This document shows positions 7,206 through 59,731 of a DNA stretch of 64,000 nt, piece after piece (the stretch's first letter is position 1; every line of letters begins with the position of its first letter). This DNA comes from an uncultured Planctomycetia bacterium (GTDB taxonomy: Bacteria > Planctomycetota > Phycisphaerae > FEN-1346 > JAACEH01), in contig CAIYVX010000083.1 of NCBI GenBank assembly GCA_903929765.1, positions 1-64,000 on the forward strand. Direction: 5' to 3'. The position numbers and the translations under genes were made by a program. The notes beneath the pieces are model-generated. The model was not told the DNA's origin, searched no databases, and was given only the letters and a program-made list of their open reading frames with translations.

Positions 7206-7356
7206 GGATTGGAAGATTTTCCCGACCTTTCGGGCCACCTTCTCCCAATGGGCGAAGAAACGACAACGACCGACGGGCGAATGGTTCTGATTCATGGCCC
7301 GTCTTTCGCCGGACCATGCCACCCACCGTTAAGATTGGGCGGAGCAACAACAGCAA

Positions 7357-23657: not shown

Positions 23658-23712
23658 GGCTAAACTCTCAAGGAACAACAACACGTCAAGGGTGACTTGA
23701 TAGCAACAGGTG

Positions 23713-23797
23713 CACCCTCACCCTACCCTCTCCCGTCAAGGGAGAGGGGTGAAGAAGCAACAACAACAGCAGGGCAGAGATAAACTCTGCCCCTACG
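23713..23797. repeat. family A palindrome plus F-like hairpin
   Basis: CCCTCACCCTACCCTCTCCC with its inverted partner (23713-23757), a CAA/CAG tract, then GGGCAGAGATAAACTCTGCCC (about 23773-23793). It lies between def and fmt. No gene within. Confidence 0.85.
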
Positions 23798-27684: not shown

Positions 27685-27920
27685 GGTGGCCTGGCGGCGG
27701 CGTTTGCCGCCATGTGAAGATGATTTTTTTTGGCCCCAGCGGGGCCATTGATAGTAGCCACGGGCGCAAGCCCGTGGAAAGAGAAGTCTAGGACGGAAAA
27801 GCCCCGGAGGGGCGACTGAATCTTGCCGCGCGGTTCAGTCGCCCCTCCGGGGCTAAGATAAAAAAGAAGAGAAATTTATTTGTCCTCATATTCCACGGGC
27901 TTGCGCCCGTGGCTATTATC
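27685..27920. repeat. nested inverted repeats between the AMMECR1 and pta genes
   Basis: A D-type palindrome (27685-27717) is followed by an outer inverted repeat of 30 bases with one mismatch (27750-27779 against 27891-27920), each arm itself palindromic around CCACGGGCGCAAGCCCGTGG, enclosing a perfect 21-bp stem (27800-27820 with 27834-27854, core CCCCGGAGGGGCGACTGAA). No gene in this 287-base gap. The inner hairpin could end transcripts arriving from either side. Confidence 0.9.
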
Positions 27921-27970
27921 AAACGCCGCTCCGCGGCTAACAGCAACATAAACCACGAAAAACCACCCAA

Positions 27971-31496: not shown

Positions 31497-32840
31497 TCAC
31501 TTCCCAAACCGTGCATAATAATAGCACACGCCCACAATGCCGCACAGGCTCGACGCCAGCAGCATCGCCAGCGGGCCGGGGCCGAGCGGATCGGCGATAT
31601 CGTGGCCGGTGGCCAGATCGTACCCGACCCAGTTCGCCCCGATCCAGATCGCCCCGCCCACCAGCGGCGCGAGCATCACGGCCACGCACCGGGCCGACCA
31701 GTTAATCCCGATCGATTGCGTCTTGCTCTCTGGCGGAATCAGGTCCACGATCATCGCCTTGCGGGCCGGCTCGCCCACCTCCCGCATCCCGGCAAAGACA
31801 AACGCCAGGGCCATCAGGGCAATCACGGCGGCATAGGGCAGTGAAAAATGAAGAACCAGGAGGCCCAGCCCCGCCAGCACCGCCGGGAACGAGGCGAAAA
31901 AGACGAACGTCAACCCGATGTACGGCCGCTTGCCGAACCCCGGCTGCGAGGCAATCGCCCCCATCGGCAAATAGGTGATCGCGCTGGTGACCTGCGAAAC
32001 AATGAGCATGGCCGCAAAAATCGCCGCCGCAGTTTTCGCCTCCACCCCCAGGGCCTTGATGAACACGGCCACCGTGAAGAGGATAATCAGTTCGCGCGGC
32101 ATGCCCTCGGCCAGCCGGGCGAAAATGTCCGCCGCGAGGAGCCGCTTCAGTTGCGGATGGAACCCGCGCAGCACCCGGATCGGATGGTTGATGATCGTCT
32201 CCTGGTCCTTGCTCGCCGTTTTCATGAACCGATGCTGCACGAACAGGCTGGCCAGCACCACAAAAAAGCTCAATCCGAACGCCGCCTCCATGCCCAGCTT
32301 GATGCCGGCAAAGTAGACCAGCCCCGCGTTGACCGCGTAAGCCAGCATCCGCGACACGCGGCGAAAGAGCGACTGGAGCGAAAAGGCCATGGCTCGTTTT
32401 TCCGGCGGCAGCGAATCGCCCACCACCGTCAGCAAGGCCGGCCCGGCCAGCGAGTCCCACACGAATACAAACGGAATCGCCAGGAATACGATCCACGATT
32501 GCGGCCCCAGCACCATCGGCCCGAACAGCAGAATCAACAGGCCCACGAGCGGTAGGGCGTTGAACAGGAGCAGCCCGCGCCGCGTGTTGAACCGCCCGGC
32601 GATGTAGCCGCCGATGAAGTAGTTGATCGCTTCCAGCAGGTCGCGGAACGAGCCGTACAGGGCGATGACCAGGATACTCGTCTGGAGATCCCGCTTCATG
32701 AAGTTCGGCAGGAACGGTCCCCATAGTTCGCTCCCCATGACGACGAGGAGAATTGCTCCGAGCAGGGCGCCGGTCGAGGAATTTATCGCCAGGTAAGCGG
32801 CCCAGGAGGGCCGAGAAGATTTGTTCGGTTGAGTGGTCAT
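31497..32840 (-). CDS. major facilitator superfamily transporter
   Basis: A 447-residue, 12-segment membrane transporter. The N-terminal half has GSFRDLLEAINYFIGGYIAG and GDSLPPEKRAMAFSLQSLFR, a loop pattern of MFS drug or sugar efflux proteins; the C-terminal half includes FVFAGMREVGEPARKAMIVD and ends VCYYYARFGK. The substrate is not predictable. Its last about 70 codons recur, diverged, on the opposite strand at 38227-38457. A family E inverted repeat lies just before the start. Confidence 0.88.
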   Translation of the reverse strand: MTTQPNKSSRPSWAAYLAINSSTGALLGAILLVVMGSELWGPFLPNFMKRDLQTSILVIALYGSFRDLLEAINYFIGGYIAGRFNTRRGLLLFNALPLVGLLILLFGPMVLGPQSWIVFLAIPFVFVWDSLAGPALLTVVGDSLPPEKRAMAFSLQSLFRRVSRMLAYAVNAGLVYFAGIKLGMEAAFGLSFFVVLASLFVQHRFMKTASKDQETIINHPIRVLRGFHPQLKRLLAADIFARLAEGMPRELIILFTVAVFIKALGVEAKTAAAIFAAMLIVSQVTSAITYLPMGAIASQPGFGKRPYIGLTFVFFASFPAVLAGLGLLVLHFSLPYAAVIALMALAFVFAGMREVGEPARKAMIVDLIPPESKTQSIGINWSARCVAVMLAPLVGGAIWIGANWVGYDLATGHDIADPLGPGPLAMLLASSLCGIVGVCYYYARFGK

Positions 32841-33050: not shown

Positions 33051-34559
33051 TTACCTGTCGGGTCTGTTGACCCGACCTACAGTTTTCAGCAACGCGCCCA
33101 CCAGATACAAACTTCCCGTCGCCACCACGACTCCACCTTCGCCGGCCGTCTCTTTAGCCGCTGCCATTGCCGCCGCAATCTCCGGATTCGTCCCGACCAC
33201 CGTTCCTCCGGCTTCGCGCAGCCCCGCTGCCAATTCCTCCGGCTCAGCCGCGCGGGGATTGTCGGTCTTCGTGAAAATCACCGCCGCCCCGGCCCTGGCC
33301 AACTCGCGGCACATGCCGGCCACGTCCTTATCCGCCGCCGCCGCGAAGAGATAAACCGTCCGCCGGCCGGGATAATAATCGGCCACGGCGGCGCAGAGTT
33401 CGGCGATGCTCCGGGCGTTGTGCGCCCCGTCGAGAATCACCGTCACCGGACCGGGAAAAACTTCCATCCGCCCCGGCCATTCTACCGCCGCCAGCGCCGT
33501 TCGCATTTTTTCGGCATCTAGCCTCTCGCCCAGCACAATCTCCGCCGCCGCCACGGCACAAGCGGCGTTCGCCCCCTGAAACCGTCCGGCCAGTGACAAT
33601 AGCAGATTTTCATAAGCCCCGCGCGCCGTCCGCACCGTCACCCGCCCGGTCGGTTTGCCGGCGAGGAAATCTTTGTGCCATGAGAATTGCACCTGCCGTT
33701 GAGAGGTTACTGGCGGAAACCCCTCACCCGGCCCTGAAGGGCCACCCTCTCCCAAGGGAGAGGGGTGAAGAAGCGAAGATTTTTCATCGGGCGTCTGGGA
33801 TTCATGGCGGCAAACAGCGGCCGCCATGCCACCCGGATCGTGAGTGGGGCGAAGAAGACCGACGCGCACGAGCGGCGCACCAACTTCTCCCGCCACCTCC
33901 GCAATCACCGCCTCGGCCTCCGCTTCCTGCGGGGCCACCACCAGCGGCACGCCTGCCTTGGCGATGCCGGCCTTTTCCCTCGCAATCGACGCCAGGTCCG
34001 GCCCGAGTTGCTGCACATGATCCAGGCTGAGGCCGGTAATAATTGCGACTTCCGGCCGCACCACGTTGGTCGAATCGAGCCGCCCGCCCAGCCCGACCTC
34101 GATCACGGCCACGTCCACCACCGCCTCGGCGAAGGCCAGGAACCCGACGGCCGTCATCACCTCGAAAAACGTCGGTGGATCGTCGTGAAGCGTTTTATCA
34201 ATCGCCTCCGCCACCCGCCCCGCCATTCGCCGCATCACGTCGCGGTCGATCAGTTCCCGGTCGATCTGAATCCGCTCGCGCAGGTCCACCAGGTGCGGCG
34301 AGACGAACAGGCCGGTTCGCAGCCCATGCTGCCGCAGGATCGCCTCGACCATGGCCGCCGTCGAGCCTTTGCCTTTGGTCCCGGCGATGTGGACCGACCG
34401 GAACCGCTCATGCGGATTCCCCACCGCCGCGAGCAGCCCGGCCACGCGCTGGAGGCTGAACGTGTCGGCGTTGTACCGCACGCGGCGCATCCGCTCGTAA
34501 TCGGTGCTTTGCGTCAGATAATTTATGGCCGCATCGTAGTCGGCGAACCGCTCACTCAT
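33051..34559 (-). CDS. folC: folylpolyglutamate synthase / dihydrofolate synthase with an in-frame repeat insertion
   Basis: Adds glutamate to folates (and makes dihydrofolate from dihydropteroate). At 502 residues it is longer than the usual 420-450. The P-loop GTKGKGSTAAMVEAIL (about 57-72), VIEVGLGGRLDSTNVV and VILDGAHNARSIAEL are intact. Residues about 245-290 contain SSLLHPSPLGEGGPSGPGEG and neighbours that are translated from a family A palindrome and a family D palindrome (33719-33834); they are not family sequence. The reading frame stays open through both, so the enzyme may still be made with an extra loop. Confidence 0.92.
   Translation of the reverse strand: MSERFADYDAAINYLTQSTDYERMRRVRYNADTFSLQRVAGLLAAVGNPHERFRSVHIAGTKGKGSTAAMVEAILRQHGLRTGLFVSPHLVDLRERIQIDRELIDRDVMRRMAGRVAEAIDKTLHDDPPTFFEVMTAVGFLAFAEAVVDVAVIEVGLGGRLDSTNVVRPEVAIITGLSLDHVQQLGPDLASIAREKAGIAKAGVPLVVAPQEAEAEAVIAEVAGEVGAPLVRVGLLRPTHDPGGMAAAVCRHESQTPDEKSSLLHPSPLGEGGPSGPGEGFPPVTSQRQVQFSWHKDFLAGKPTGRVTVRTARGAYENLLLSLAGRFQGANAACAVAAAEIVLGERLDAEKMRTALAAVEWPGRMEVFPGPVTVILDGAHNARSIAELCAAVADYYPGRRTVYLFAAAADKDVAGMCRELARAGAAVIFTKTDNPRAAEPEELAAGLREAGGTVVGTNPEIAAAMAAAKETAGEGGVVVATGSLYLVGALLKTVGRVNRPDR
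33719..33834. repeat. family A plus family D palindromes inside folC
   Basis: CCCTCACCCGGCCCTGAAGG through GGGAGAGGGGTGAAG (33719-33773) and CATGGCGGCAAACAGCGGCC (from 33803, ending GCCACCC at 33834). The same two modules occur together, in reverse order, before tpiA (43157-43262). Here they lie wholly within coding sequence. Confidence 0.9.
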
Positions 34560-38226: not shown

Positions 38227-38457
38227 AATCCCGGAATCCTGGTGCCACCTTCGATCGGGATTTACTGGTCGGCGCGGTGCGTGGCCGTGATGCTCGCGCC
38301 GCTCGTGGGCGGGGCGATCTGGATTTTTACCAACCTCGCCTACGGCCACGAAATCGCCGATCCGCTCGGCCCCGGCCCGGTGGCGATGCTCCTGGCGTCG
38401 AGCCTGTGCGGGATTGTGGGCGTGTGCTATTATTATGCCCGGTTCGGGATAGATTAG
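38227..38457 (+). pseudogene. stranded second copy of the MFS transporter 3' end
   Basis: The frame from 38227 reads SIGIYWSARCVAVMLAPLVG, then GAIWIFTNLAYGHEIADPLG and SSLCGIVGVCYYYARFGID. This matches the last about 70 residues of the transporter at 31497-32840 (SIGINWSARCVAVMLAPLVG ... CYYYARFGK) with few changes. No earlier part of the transporter is present. It lies on the opposite strand to the intact gene, directly after dprA and before an AT-richer region. Confidence 0.92.
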
Positions 38458-43156: not shown

Positions 43157-43262
43157 GGGTGGCATGGCGGCCGCTGTTTGCCGCCATGAGGTTAGGAGCC
43201 AAAACCACTCACCCGGCCTTTTTTCCCCAGGCCCACCCTCTCCAAAGGGAGAGGGGTGAAGA
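43157..43262. repeat. family D plus family A palindromes before tpiA
   Basis: GGGTGGCATGGCGGCCGCTG and its inverted partner (43157-43189), then CACTCACCCGGCC through GGGAGAGGGGTGAAGAG (43205-43262). The same two modules are embedded in folC. The element ends 11 bases before the tpiA start and contributes its A/G-rich ribosome binding site. Confidence 0.9.
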
Positions 43263-43273
43263 GGAGAGATTGA

Positions 43274-46040: not shown

Positions 46041-46050
46041 GGTGTTTTAA

Positions 46051-46099
46051 CCCCTCTCCCTTGGGAGAGGGTGGCCCGAAGGGCCGGGTGAGGGGTTTA
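46051..46099. repeat. family A palindrome in reverse orientation
   Basis: CCCCTCTCCCTTGGGAGAGG followed by GTGGCCCGAAGGGCCGGGTGAGGGG, the reverse complement of the folC type copy. It lies between yicC and the remA-like gene. Confidence 0.88.
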
Positions 46100-46166
46100 G
46101 GCTGCAAACCTCACGAATAGACCAAGTTGCCGTTAAGCCGCATCTAAGCTGCCGTGGAGCGCCGCC

Positions 46167-57232: not shown

Positions 57233-58471
57233 GTGACCCGACGAACTCTCGCCTGTGCCTTGGTCGTGTCCCTTTTCCTGGCCGCCACCCTGGCCGCCGC
57301 CGATTGGCCGCAGTTCCGCGGCCCCAACCACGACAACAAGTCGACCGAAACGGGCCTCCTGAAAACCTGGCCCGCCGGCGGACCGAAGCTCCTCTGGACC
57401 GCGACGGGTTGCGGGGCCGGTTACGGCAGTCCGGCCGTTTCCGGCAGCACGATTTACCTCACCGGCGACGTTGACGGCAAGGCCTGCCTGCTGACCTTCG
57501 ACCTCAACGGCAAACCGAAGAACCACGCGGCCTTCGGCAAAGAGAATACGGTCGATCCGAGCAAATTTTTCGGCGGGCGCAGCACCCCGACGGTTGAGGG
57601 CGGCTTCGTCTACGTCGCCGGGGCGTTCGGCGAACTGGCCTGTCTGGACGCCAAAACGCTCGCCCCGAAATGGCAAATCAATATCAGCGAGAAGTTCCAT
57701 GGAAAACTGCCGCAGTGGGAATACGCCGATTCGCCGCTCATCGACGGGGACAATCTGATCTGCACGCCGGGCGGCCCGAACGCCACCATCGTGGCCCTGA
57801 ACAAGAAAACCGGCGAGACGGTCTGGACCTCCAAGGGCCTCTCGGATTCGGCCGCCTATGCCACCTGCGCCAGGATGACCCTCGACAAAATGCCGACGAT
57901 CGTCACCATGACGGCCAAGGGCCTGGTCGGCGTCAGCGCCAAAACCGGCCAGTTTCTCTGGCGCTTTGATAAGCTGGTCAACCCCTATGCCAACTGCCCG
58001 TCGCCGGTTTTCCTGGGCAACCGCATCTTCTGCGCCAGCGCCTTCGCCGCCGGGGCCGTCGATCTCCGCGTCACCGAAAGCGGCGTCGTCGCCACCGAGG
58101 CCTGGATGAGCAAAGATCTGCACAGCCGTACCGGCGGTTATGTGCTGGTCGATGGCTATATTTACGGCAACAACGAAGTTGGCCCGATTTGCCTCGACTG
58201 GAAGACCGGCGAGAAAAAATGGTCCGCCGAGCGCAAGGAGATGGGTTGCGTGACCTACGCCGATGGTATGCTCTACATCCTGGGAGAAACGACCCGCAAG
58301 GTCGCGCTGGCCCAGGCTTCACCTGACGGTTTCACGGTCGCCGGCGAATTCACGTTGCCCGGCGGCGGCAAGGATCCGTTCTGGGCCTATCCGGCCCTCG
58401 CCAACGGCCGGCTCTACGTCCGCCATTGGGACTCGCTCTTCTGCTACGACATTAAGGCCGAGGCCAAGTAA
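57233..58471 (+). CDS. secreted PQQ-type beta-propeller protein (paralogue 1)
   Basis: I choose the GTG 57233 because AGGAGA lies six bases upstream; the frame opens at 57194 inside the previous gene. The signal peptide ends ATLAAADWPQFRGPNHDN. The 412-residue protein has repeated beta-propeller blades in the style LLWTATGCGAGYGSPAVSGS, LDAKTLAPKWQIN and VALNKKTGETVWTSKGLSD, typical of PQQ-like repeats. It may bind a ligand or be enzymatic; a catalytic role cannot be assigned. A close paralogue follows at once. Confidence 0.88.
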   Translation: MTRRTLACALVVSLFLAATLAAADWPQFRGPNHDNKSTETGLLKTWPAGGPKLLWTATGCGAGYGSPAVSGSTIYLTGDVDGKACLLTFDLNGKPKNHAAFGKENTVDPSKFFGGRSTPTVEGGFVYVAGAFGELACLDAKTLAPKWQINISEKFHGKLPQWEYADSPLIDGDNLICTPGGPNATIVALNKKTGETVWTSKGLSDSAAYATCARMTLDKMPTIVTMTAKGLVGVSAKTGQFLWRFDKLVNPYANCPSPVFLGNRIFCASAFAAGAVDLRVTESGVVATEAWMSKDLHSRTGGYVLVDGYIYGNNEVGPICLDWKTGEKKWSAERKEMGCVTYADGMLYILGETTRKVALAQASPDGFTVAGEFTLPGGGKDPFWAYPALANGRLYVRHWDSLFCYDIKAEAK

Positions 58472-58504: not shown

Positions 58505-59731
58505 GTGAATCAACGAATCTTCGCCGCCGCTGTTGCCGCGTTTCTGCTCCTGGAAGCTACCGTTTCCGCCGCCGATTGGCCGCAGTTCCGCGGCCCGGCC
58601 CGCGACGGACAATCACCGGAAACCGGCCTGCTCAAGAGCTGGCCCGCCGACGGACCGAAACTGCTCTGGACCGCCACGGGTTGCGGCCAGGGCTACAGCA
58701 GCCCGGTCATCGTCGGCGACACCGTCTACACTCTCGGCGACGTGGAAGGCAAGGGTTGCCTCATCACCTTTACGCTCGACGGCAAGCCCGGCAAAACCGT
58801 CCCCGTCTGCAAGGCCAACTCCGGCGAATTCGCCGGTCCCCACAGCACGCCCACCGTCGAGGGCGGGATGGTCTACTGCTTCGGCCCGCAAGGCGACCTG
58901 GAAGGCCTCAACGCCAAGACGCTCGAAAAAGTCTGGGCCGTCAACGTCTGCGAAAAGTTTCAGGGCAAAGTCCCCGGCTGGCGATATTCCGAATCGCCGC
59001 TGGTGGACGGCGACCACGTGATTTGCTCGCCCGGCGGACCTGATGCCGCCCTCGTCGCGCTCAACAGAAAGACCGGCGAAACCGTCTGGACCTCCAAGGG
59101 CCTCTCCGACCCTGCCGCCTACGCTTCGACGGTGAAGATGACCGTGGACAAGCTGCCCATGATCGTGGCCCAGACGGCCAAGAGCCTGGTCGGCGTCAAC
59201 GCCGCGACCGGCGCGCCGCTCTGGCATTACAAACGCCCGGCCAACGGAACCGCCAATGCCCCTTCGCCCGTCTTTTCCGGCAACCAGGTGTTCGAGGCCA
59301 CAGGCTACGGCAAAGGCGGCGGCGCGGTCGATCTGACGGTTTCCGGCGGCGCCGTCACGGCCACGCAGGCCTGGGAAACCAAGGACATGGATTGCCATCA
59401 CGGCGGGTATGTGCTGGTCAACGGCCACCTCTACGGCAACAACGGCGGCGGCTGGACCTGTCTGGATTTCAAGACCGGCGAAACAAAATGGAAGGCCGGC
59501 GGCGTCGGCAAGGGCTGCGTGATTTATGCCGACGGAATGCTTTATACCCAGGGCGAGAGCAGCCACGAAATCGGCCTGGTGAAAGCCGCCCCGGACGCGT
59601 TCACGCTGGTCAGCAAGTTCAAGCTGCCCAGCGCCGAAAAGACCTCGCTCTGGGCTCATCCGGCCATCGCCAATGGGCGGCTCTATATCCGCTACGGCGA
59701 TTCGTTGTATTGTTATGACATTAAACAATAG
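58505..59731 (+). CDS. secreted PQQ-type beta-propeller protein (paralogue 2)
   Basis: A 408-residue protein starting at GTG 58505, after TTGGAGA. Its signal ends VSAADWPQFRGPARDGQSPE. It is closely related to the preceding gene: TATGCGQGYSSPVIVGD, VALNRKTGETVWTSKGLSDP and YADGMLYTQGESS. The two arose by tandem duplication. The last blade ends YIRYGDSLYCYDIKQ. Function likely similar; substrate unknown. Confidence 0.88.
   Translation: MNQRIFAAAVAAFLLLEATVSAADWPQFRGPARDGQSPETGLLKSWPADGPKLLWTATGCGQGYSSPVIVGDTVYTLGDVEGKGCLITFTLDGKPGKTVPVCKANSGEFAGPHSTPTVEGGMVYCFGPQGDLEGLNAKTLEKVWAVNVCEKFQGKVPGWRYSESPLVDGDHVICSPGGPDAALVALNRKTGETVWTSKGLSDPAAYASTVKMTVDKLPMIVAQTAKSLVGVNAATGAPLWHYKRPANGTANAPSPVFSGNQVFEATGYGKGGGAVDLTVSGGAVTATQAWETKDMDCHHGGYVLVNGHLYGNNGGGWTCLDFKTGETKWKAGGVGKGCVIYADGMLYTQGESSHEIGLVKAAPDAFTLVSKFKLPSAEKTSLWAHPAIANGRLYIRYGDSLYCYDIKQ

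Follow-up and report, generated by a model that had tools for sequence, protein, structure and literature searches.

The closest described counterparts of the repeats considered here are the Rickettsia palindromic elements of R. conorii and relatives; these are about 150 nt long, occur in frame in many unrelated genes, encode a conserved peptide and are tolerated in metabolic enzymes (PMC10969869). Intragenic REPs tagged by GTAG or CGTC, including those of the verrucomicrobial Opitutus terrae, are high-copy and mostly intergenic, with some copies in frame and many in genes of replication and repair (recBCD, uvrA, polA, tRNA synthetases) (Di Nocera et al. 2013, PMC3733652); the text of that paper does not speak of leading or lagging strands or of GC skew. 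Non-autonomous hairpin repeats are also found in the REPIN/RAYT and IS200/IS605 systems (PMC3116915, PMC6006769), and for IS200/IS605 elements insertion into the lagging-strand template is established (PMC6006769). The enterobacterial MITEs ERIC and RU are small mobile sequences with open frames in genes (PMC2759123, PMC2229807).

Here we analyzed palindromes inside the folC gene of a 64-kb stretch of DNA (‘the window’), which is contig C83 of a 3.83 Mb draft genome (116 contigs, 96% complete). The main constituent, the A element, often joined to a second palindrome, D, is similar to Rickettsia palindromic elements: with D it is about 150 nt long, it encodes a conserved peptide and is found in metabolic enzymes, in-frame palindromes are present in many unrelated genes (57 hairpins in 40 ORFs), and the insert is absent from the relatives’ orthologues (FolC, AroC, AddA and ValS). 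On the other hand, the host lineage is unrelated, most copies are intergenic and the FolC insert is modelled as disordered; the likeness noted in a preliminary description of the window is one of behaviour, in-frame insertion in many unrelated protein genes. With the tagged REPs the elements share high copy number, mostly intergenic location and a closely overlapping list of hosts; however, A carries neither tag (of 179 type I copies, 1 has GTAG and 7 have CGTC/GACG) and consists of three hairpins, often joined to D. As in REPIN/RAYT and IS200/IS605 systems, we saw non-autonomous hairpin repeats together with Y1 transposase genes in the genome, but A differs from a simple inverted REP doublet, a foot tetranucleotide was not found, and no cognate transposase flanked by A was seen: there is no A hairpin within 2 kb of seven Y1 genes, some of whose flanks are cut by contig ends. 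In comparison with ERIC and RU, which have far fewer in-gene copies, no target duplications were found. The A element is a new family working like Rickettsia palindromic elements, compared by behaviour only, or intragenic REPs; by the foot test it is not a GTAG/CGTC-tagged REP. Our literature search found no paper tying intragenic palindromes to Planctomycetota.

The insert in folC and related repeats of the window

A single open folC frame runs across both palindromes, as described earlier and as the positions of the ORF and the repeats confirm. The insert was, however, longer than the about 45 residues first reported, since a third hairpin had been missed (Table 1). It is made of the GGGTGGCATGGCGGC palindrome (D) and of the three-hairpin CCCTCTCCC element (A). 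The three adjoining hairpins of A span about 75–90 nt; with D they form a composite of about 150 nt. Folded as single-stranded DNA, the insert gave the D stem and three more hairpins (z = -3.3, no shuffle being equally stable); a search of Rfam at the insert returned no RNA family.

Table 1. Coordinates of folC, its insert, related repeats and the valS frame (positions refer to the window unless a contig is named)
Feature	Position	Strand	Description
folC	33051..34559	-	502 aa, split in frame; TIGR01499 folC, E=1.3e-108, in two pieces
Entire in-frame insert	33699..33857	-	FolC residues 235-287 (53 residues; LLRPTHDPGGMAAAVCRHESQTPDEKSSLLHPSPLGEGGPSGPGEGFPPVTSQ); missing in 30 relatives
D palindrome	33798..33833	-	stem CATGGCGGC/GCCGCCATG at 33803-33828
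D-to-A linker	33766..33797	-	kept in other composite copies (composite identity 83-90%)
A element hairpin 1	33744..33765	-	CCCTCTCCC TT GGGAGAGGG
A element hairpin 2	33730..33743	-	GGCCC TTCA GGGCC
A element hairpin 3	33701..33725	-	GAGGGGTT ... AACCTCTC; outside the extent first described
D copy upstream of tpiA	43157..43189	+	33 nt identical to folC D; inverted repeat I6
A copy upstream of tpiA	43229..43267	+	90% over 39 nt; family D3
Another A copy	46047..46112	-	hairpin 1 97%, tail 82%; + strand is reverse complement of the folC copy; I9, I11
A-type related repeat, 108 nt	23689..23796	+	reference of 4-copy family D1; others at 7333, 31355, 40560
valS frame	C82:71100-75023		1308 aa; type I element and separate 265-residue transposase segment in frame

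Both palindromes are repeated elsewhere within the window. The same pair had been said to precede tpiA, a gene whose identity as triose-phosphate isomerase we confirmed. Both modules are indeed present there, but D is flipped relative to A and the spacing is different; the tpiA pair is made of the same two modules and is not the same composite.

Other repeats were seen in the window as well. An Rfam match to Acido-Lenti-1 RNA (RF01687, 43.9 bits; 27893-27938) lies in a pair of 50-nt inverted repeats (27730-27779 and 27891-27940); long inverted repeats at 31502-31715 and 38251-38449, 6.5 kb apart, match over 162 nt at 82% and over 74 nt at 96%; and a 285-nt direct repeat (57678-57962 and 58941-59225) has 73% identity.

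A reading error in folC is not indicated: the frame is open, and the peptide HPSPLGEGGPxGPGEGLRPE of the FolC insert recurs in frame in dozens of other genes. The gene is located deep within its contig, with frame intact and flanks matching; the insert rests on the assembled sequence of a draft genome.

Distribution of the elements in the genome

The recurrence of the palindromes proved to extend over the whole genome. The exact A hairpin, CCCTCTCCC-N0-8-GGGAGAGGG, occurs 264 times, compared with 0 for the reversed control; the nearest relative, G001, has 8 such hairpins and the other relatives searched have from 0 to 63. Only the own genome matched the D+A composite in a search of 294 genomes of the phylum (E<=1e-6). 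It contains about a dozen further composite copies, with 83–90% DNA identity, in unrelated genes.

To classify hairpins by location we used 2.14 Mb of sequence, with ORFs called by codon bias and two mismatches allowed. Fifty-seven of 320 hairpins were in frame, in 40 ORFs having coding-like codon use on both sides; 40 host ORFs is a lower bound. In an unbiased part of 1.35 Mb, chosen regardless of in-gene matches, the 130 hairpins were divided into three groups: (i) clearly in frame (11); (ii) intergenic (89); (iii) undecided (30). Over the 2.14 Mb, 57 of 72 undecided hairpins were close to the 5′-end of a frame running from stop to stop and are possibly located upstream of the true start. 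Called ORFs cover ∼80% of the sequence; copies within genes are therefore strongly depleted, and the ones that we see are survivors.

A preference of type I elements for one reading frame did not hold: the count of 34 same-strand versus 3 opposite appeared only in regions picked by the same-strand peptide, and the unbiased 1.35 Mb gave 4:3. Other reading frames of type I elements also occur (NPSPGPEGPPSPKGEG and TPHPALAGHPLPRERGE).

Among 67 contigs covered from base 1, 13 had an element in the first 250 nt, with about 2.5 expected; thus, the repeats do break this assembly. The addB gene is apparently split across two contigs (C114:47564 and C86:1) exactly at a composite element, and these contigs are probably adjacent. 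The addAB genes have about eight element copies.

Host genes and empty sites in relatives

Most of the 40 host ORFs have curated domains. Hosts identified by Pfam and NCBIfam include chorismate synthase (AroC), IspG/GcpE, asparagine synthase, HypF, LpxB, valyl-tRNA synthetase (ValS), DNA polymerase I (PolA), UvrA, PriA, DnaX, ScpB, MutL, AddA, AddB, a TauE-type exporter, a b-type cytochrome and a MiaB-like radical SAM protein. By raw count, 8 of the 40 hosts act in replication, repair or chromosome maintenance, which agrees with the host list of PMC3733652.

Among 60 relatives searched, the only genome of the same family is G001. Its FolC matches residues 1-234 and 290-497 of ours, the two matches being separated by about six bases, and G001 has diverged too far to give base-exact insertion junctions; the flanks are 70% identical and the empty site is intact, with VG directly followed by SDVHREW in the DNA alignment. 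Besides, none of the 30 FolC homologues in the alignment carries the insert. Both observations bear out the earlier proposal that the repeats were mobile after folC had been established.

Empty sites in G001 were found for AroC, AddA and ValS as well. A 42-residue gap in AroC corresponds to 27 bases in G001. AddA contains three D+A composites, each coinciding with one of the gaps in its alignment with G001 (175-234, 498-545 and 1055-1105), where G001 has about 30 bases or fewer between pieces. The ValS site is empty for the type I element. The AroC and IspG inserts are situated between matched segments of solved structures, and the PolA element lies between the 5′-3′ exonuclease and the Klenow part.

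Further short in-frame stretches, e.g. CATAGLARRAN, were seen in AddA and AddB (L139:1449-5549 and L140:14875-17562); they resemble another palindrome family. A BcrAD/BadFG activase frame of 1551 aa (C1:101971-106623) has three in-frame palindromes, along with Gln/Asn-rich stretches resembling intergenic CAACAA-rich repeat DNA.

Orientation and mode of spread

We consider it probable that the repeats form a mobile palindromic element family, with in-frame survivors in at least 40 ORFs including that of FolC. A non-autonomous element (A, often with D) would have reached hundreds of copies after the split from the nearest sequenced relative. Most copies would have settled between genes; a copy in a gene would survive if its length is a multiple of three and it offers a stop-free frame, to be read as a Pro/Gly/Ser/Glu-rich loop. 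The elements would insert where DNA is single-stranded at replication forks, an HUH (Y1/RAYT-type) transposase acting on them in trans; the host proteins would be made and would function with the loop in place. The mobilising enzyme, if a Y1 transposase, would either act in trans or be absent from the assembly.

The orientation of A, judged by the order of its hairpins rather than by single bases, follows GC skew and not the strand of neighbouring genes. It matched local skew for 249 of 291 elements, and for 167 of 174 (96%) where |skew|>=0.15; inside contigs it flips where the skew flips (C39 near 68 kb; C1). Relative to neighbouring genes in unidirectional gaps the counts were 47 same and 35 opposite, and called genes are split evenly between the skew strands (403:442). 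The effect persisted with 1 kb or 3 kb around each element excluded (176 of 192 and 151 of 174, respectively), and the A element, with 24 G and 23 C, has almost no skew of its own. Every palindrome or repeat family tested, unrelated ones included, was oriented by GC skew; among them a GTGG-footed REP, which flanks a RAYT gene, gave 10 of 10. We infer that skew marks the direction of replication in this draft genome. Insertion into the lagging-strand template, as in IS200/IS605 elements, would produce the skew-locked orientation.

One could argue that the elements spread by duplication, recombination or gene conversion rather than by transposase-catalysed insertion. No A-flanked transposase was found: the seven separate Y1 genes inspected all lack an A hairpin within 2 kb (three of the seven are <500 nt from a contig end, with flanks partly missing). 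Also, no clear target-site duplication was found at A elements: the flanks shared words hardly more often than shuffles did in the full set and no more often in the intergenic or in-frame subsets, the element boundaries being imprecise. Yet the elements occupy unrelated sites with empty counterparts in G001, and several unrelated repeat families are oriented by replication strand, which together point to a strand-sensing insertion mechanism; spread by such routes seems rather unlikely to us.

Alternatively, selection could maintain the orientation if the repeats serve as polar marks on the chromosome (Chi- or KOPS-like), the copies inside genes being by-products. The 96% co-orientation at strong skew would agree with this, and the type II variant carries GGGTAGGG, which we take to fit the KOPS pattern of E. 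coli, albeit on the opposite strand, which is C-rich. However, unrelated palindrome families, including the RAYT-flanking GTGG-footed REP, are locked equally, and a shared insertion mechanism is the simpler account; we judge selection for polar marks to be improbable.

The interrupted proteins

Given a mobile family as the probable source of the insertions, one may ask whether the interrupted genes are decaying pseudogenes, with frames open by chance in GC-rich DNA and dead protein products. The proteins are predicted from sequence, and GC-rich palindromes are often stop-free in several frames. Nevertheless, the frame stays open across 57 hairpins in 40 ORFs, and codon bias is kept on both sides of every counted insertion. 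Differences between folC and its G001 counterpart number 54, 42 and 107 at codon positions 1, 2 and 3 before the insert and 25, 19 and 57 after it; on both sides they are mainly at third positions, as expected under protein-level constraint. Moreover, the hosts are core enzymes, and neither a second full-length FolC nor a second ValS was found in the own genome assembly. We therefore think it very improbable that these genes are dead.

The AlphaFold2 model of FolC, built on the alignment, had a mean pLDDT of 86, with most of the core >90. In a Foldseek comparison with solved FolC/FPGS structures (2vor, 1w78 and 1jbw) target-normalised TM was 0.88-0.90, which together with the profile match places the protein in the FolC family. 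Residues 240-285 all had pLDDT<50 and were without secondary structure; the insert was modelled between strands 230-235 and 288-299. The insertion point is a loop of the FolC fold, so that the core need not be disturbed; its surface position is suggested by the predicted disorder. The earlier notion that the insert is tolerated in the enzyme holds as far as the intact frame in the sole FolC found. That the insert is an old functional extension merely resembling the repeats is hardly credible: it does lie in one open frame of a conserved enzyme, but it is absent from the 30 aligned relatives, its composite recurs in about a dozen copies in unrelated genes and in a single one of the 294 genomes, and it is modelled as disordered.

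Among hosts of the mobile family, the valS frame presents a special case. Its 265-residue segment matched the REP-associated tyrosine transposase model NF047646 (E=1.1e-17; 64 bits, below the model cut-off of 80) and has GTGG-type REPs on both sides. The G001 ValS contains neither the type I element nor the transposase, with 10 bases between pieces at each site. An apparently complete transposase unit within the frame of an aminoacyl-tRNA synthetase is unusual. One could speculate, and we do so only tentatively, that fork-directed single-strand transposition moves a number of unrelated palindrome families at once, reshapes core enzymes in frame time and again and has even placed a complete RAYT with its own REPs in the ValS frame. 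If this is true, ValS, an essential protein, would be produced with the mobilising enzyme as one of its internal domains.

Implications

To our knowledge, in-frame palindromic insertions have to date been described chiefly in Rickettsiales and in a small number of REP-rich bacteria. With regard to a possible tie of in-frame palindromes to the obligate intracellular life of Rickettsiales, the elements described here are apparently an independent case. They have at least 40 host genes, and many of these code for core enzymes of replication, repair and metabolism. Through the strand-locked orientation, the way in which such elements move can be tested simply and from sequence alone. FolC, AroC, AddA and ValS, with empty sites in a sister genome, would be good subjects for studying how a random disordered loop may enter an essential enzyme harmlessly.
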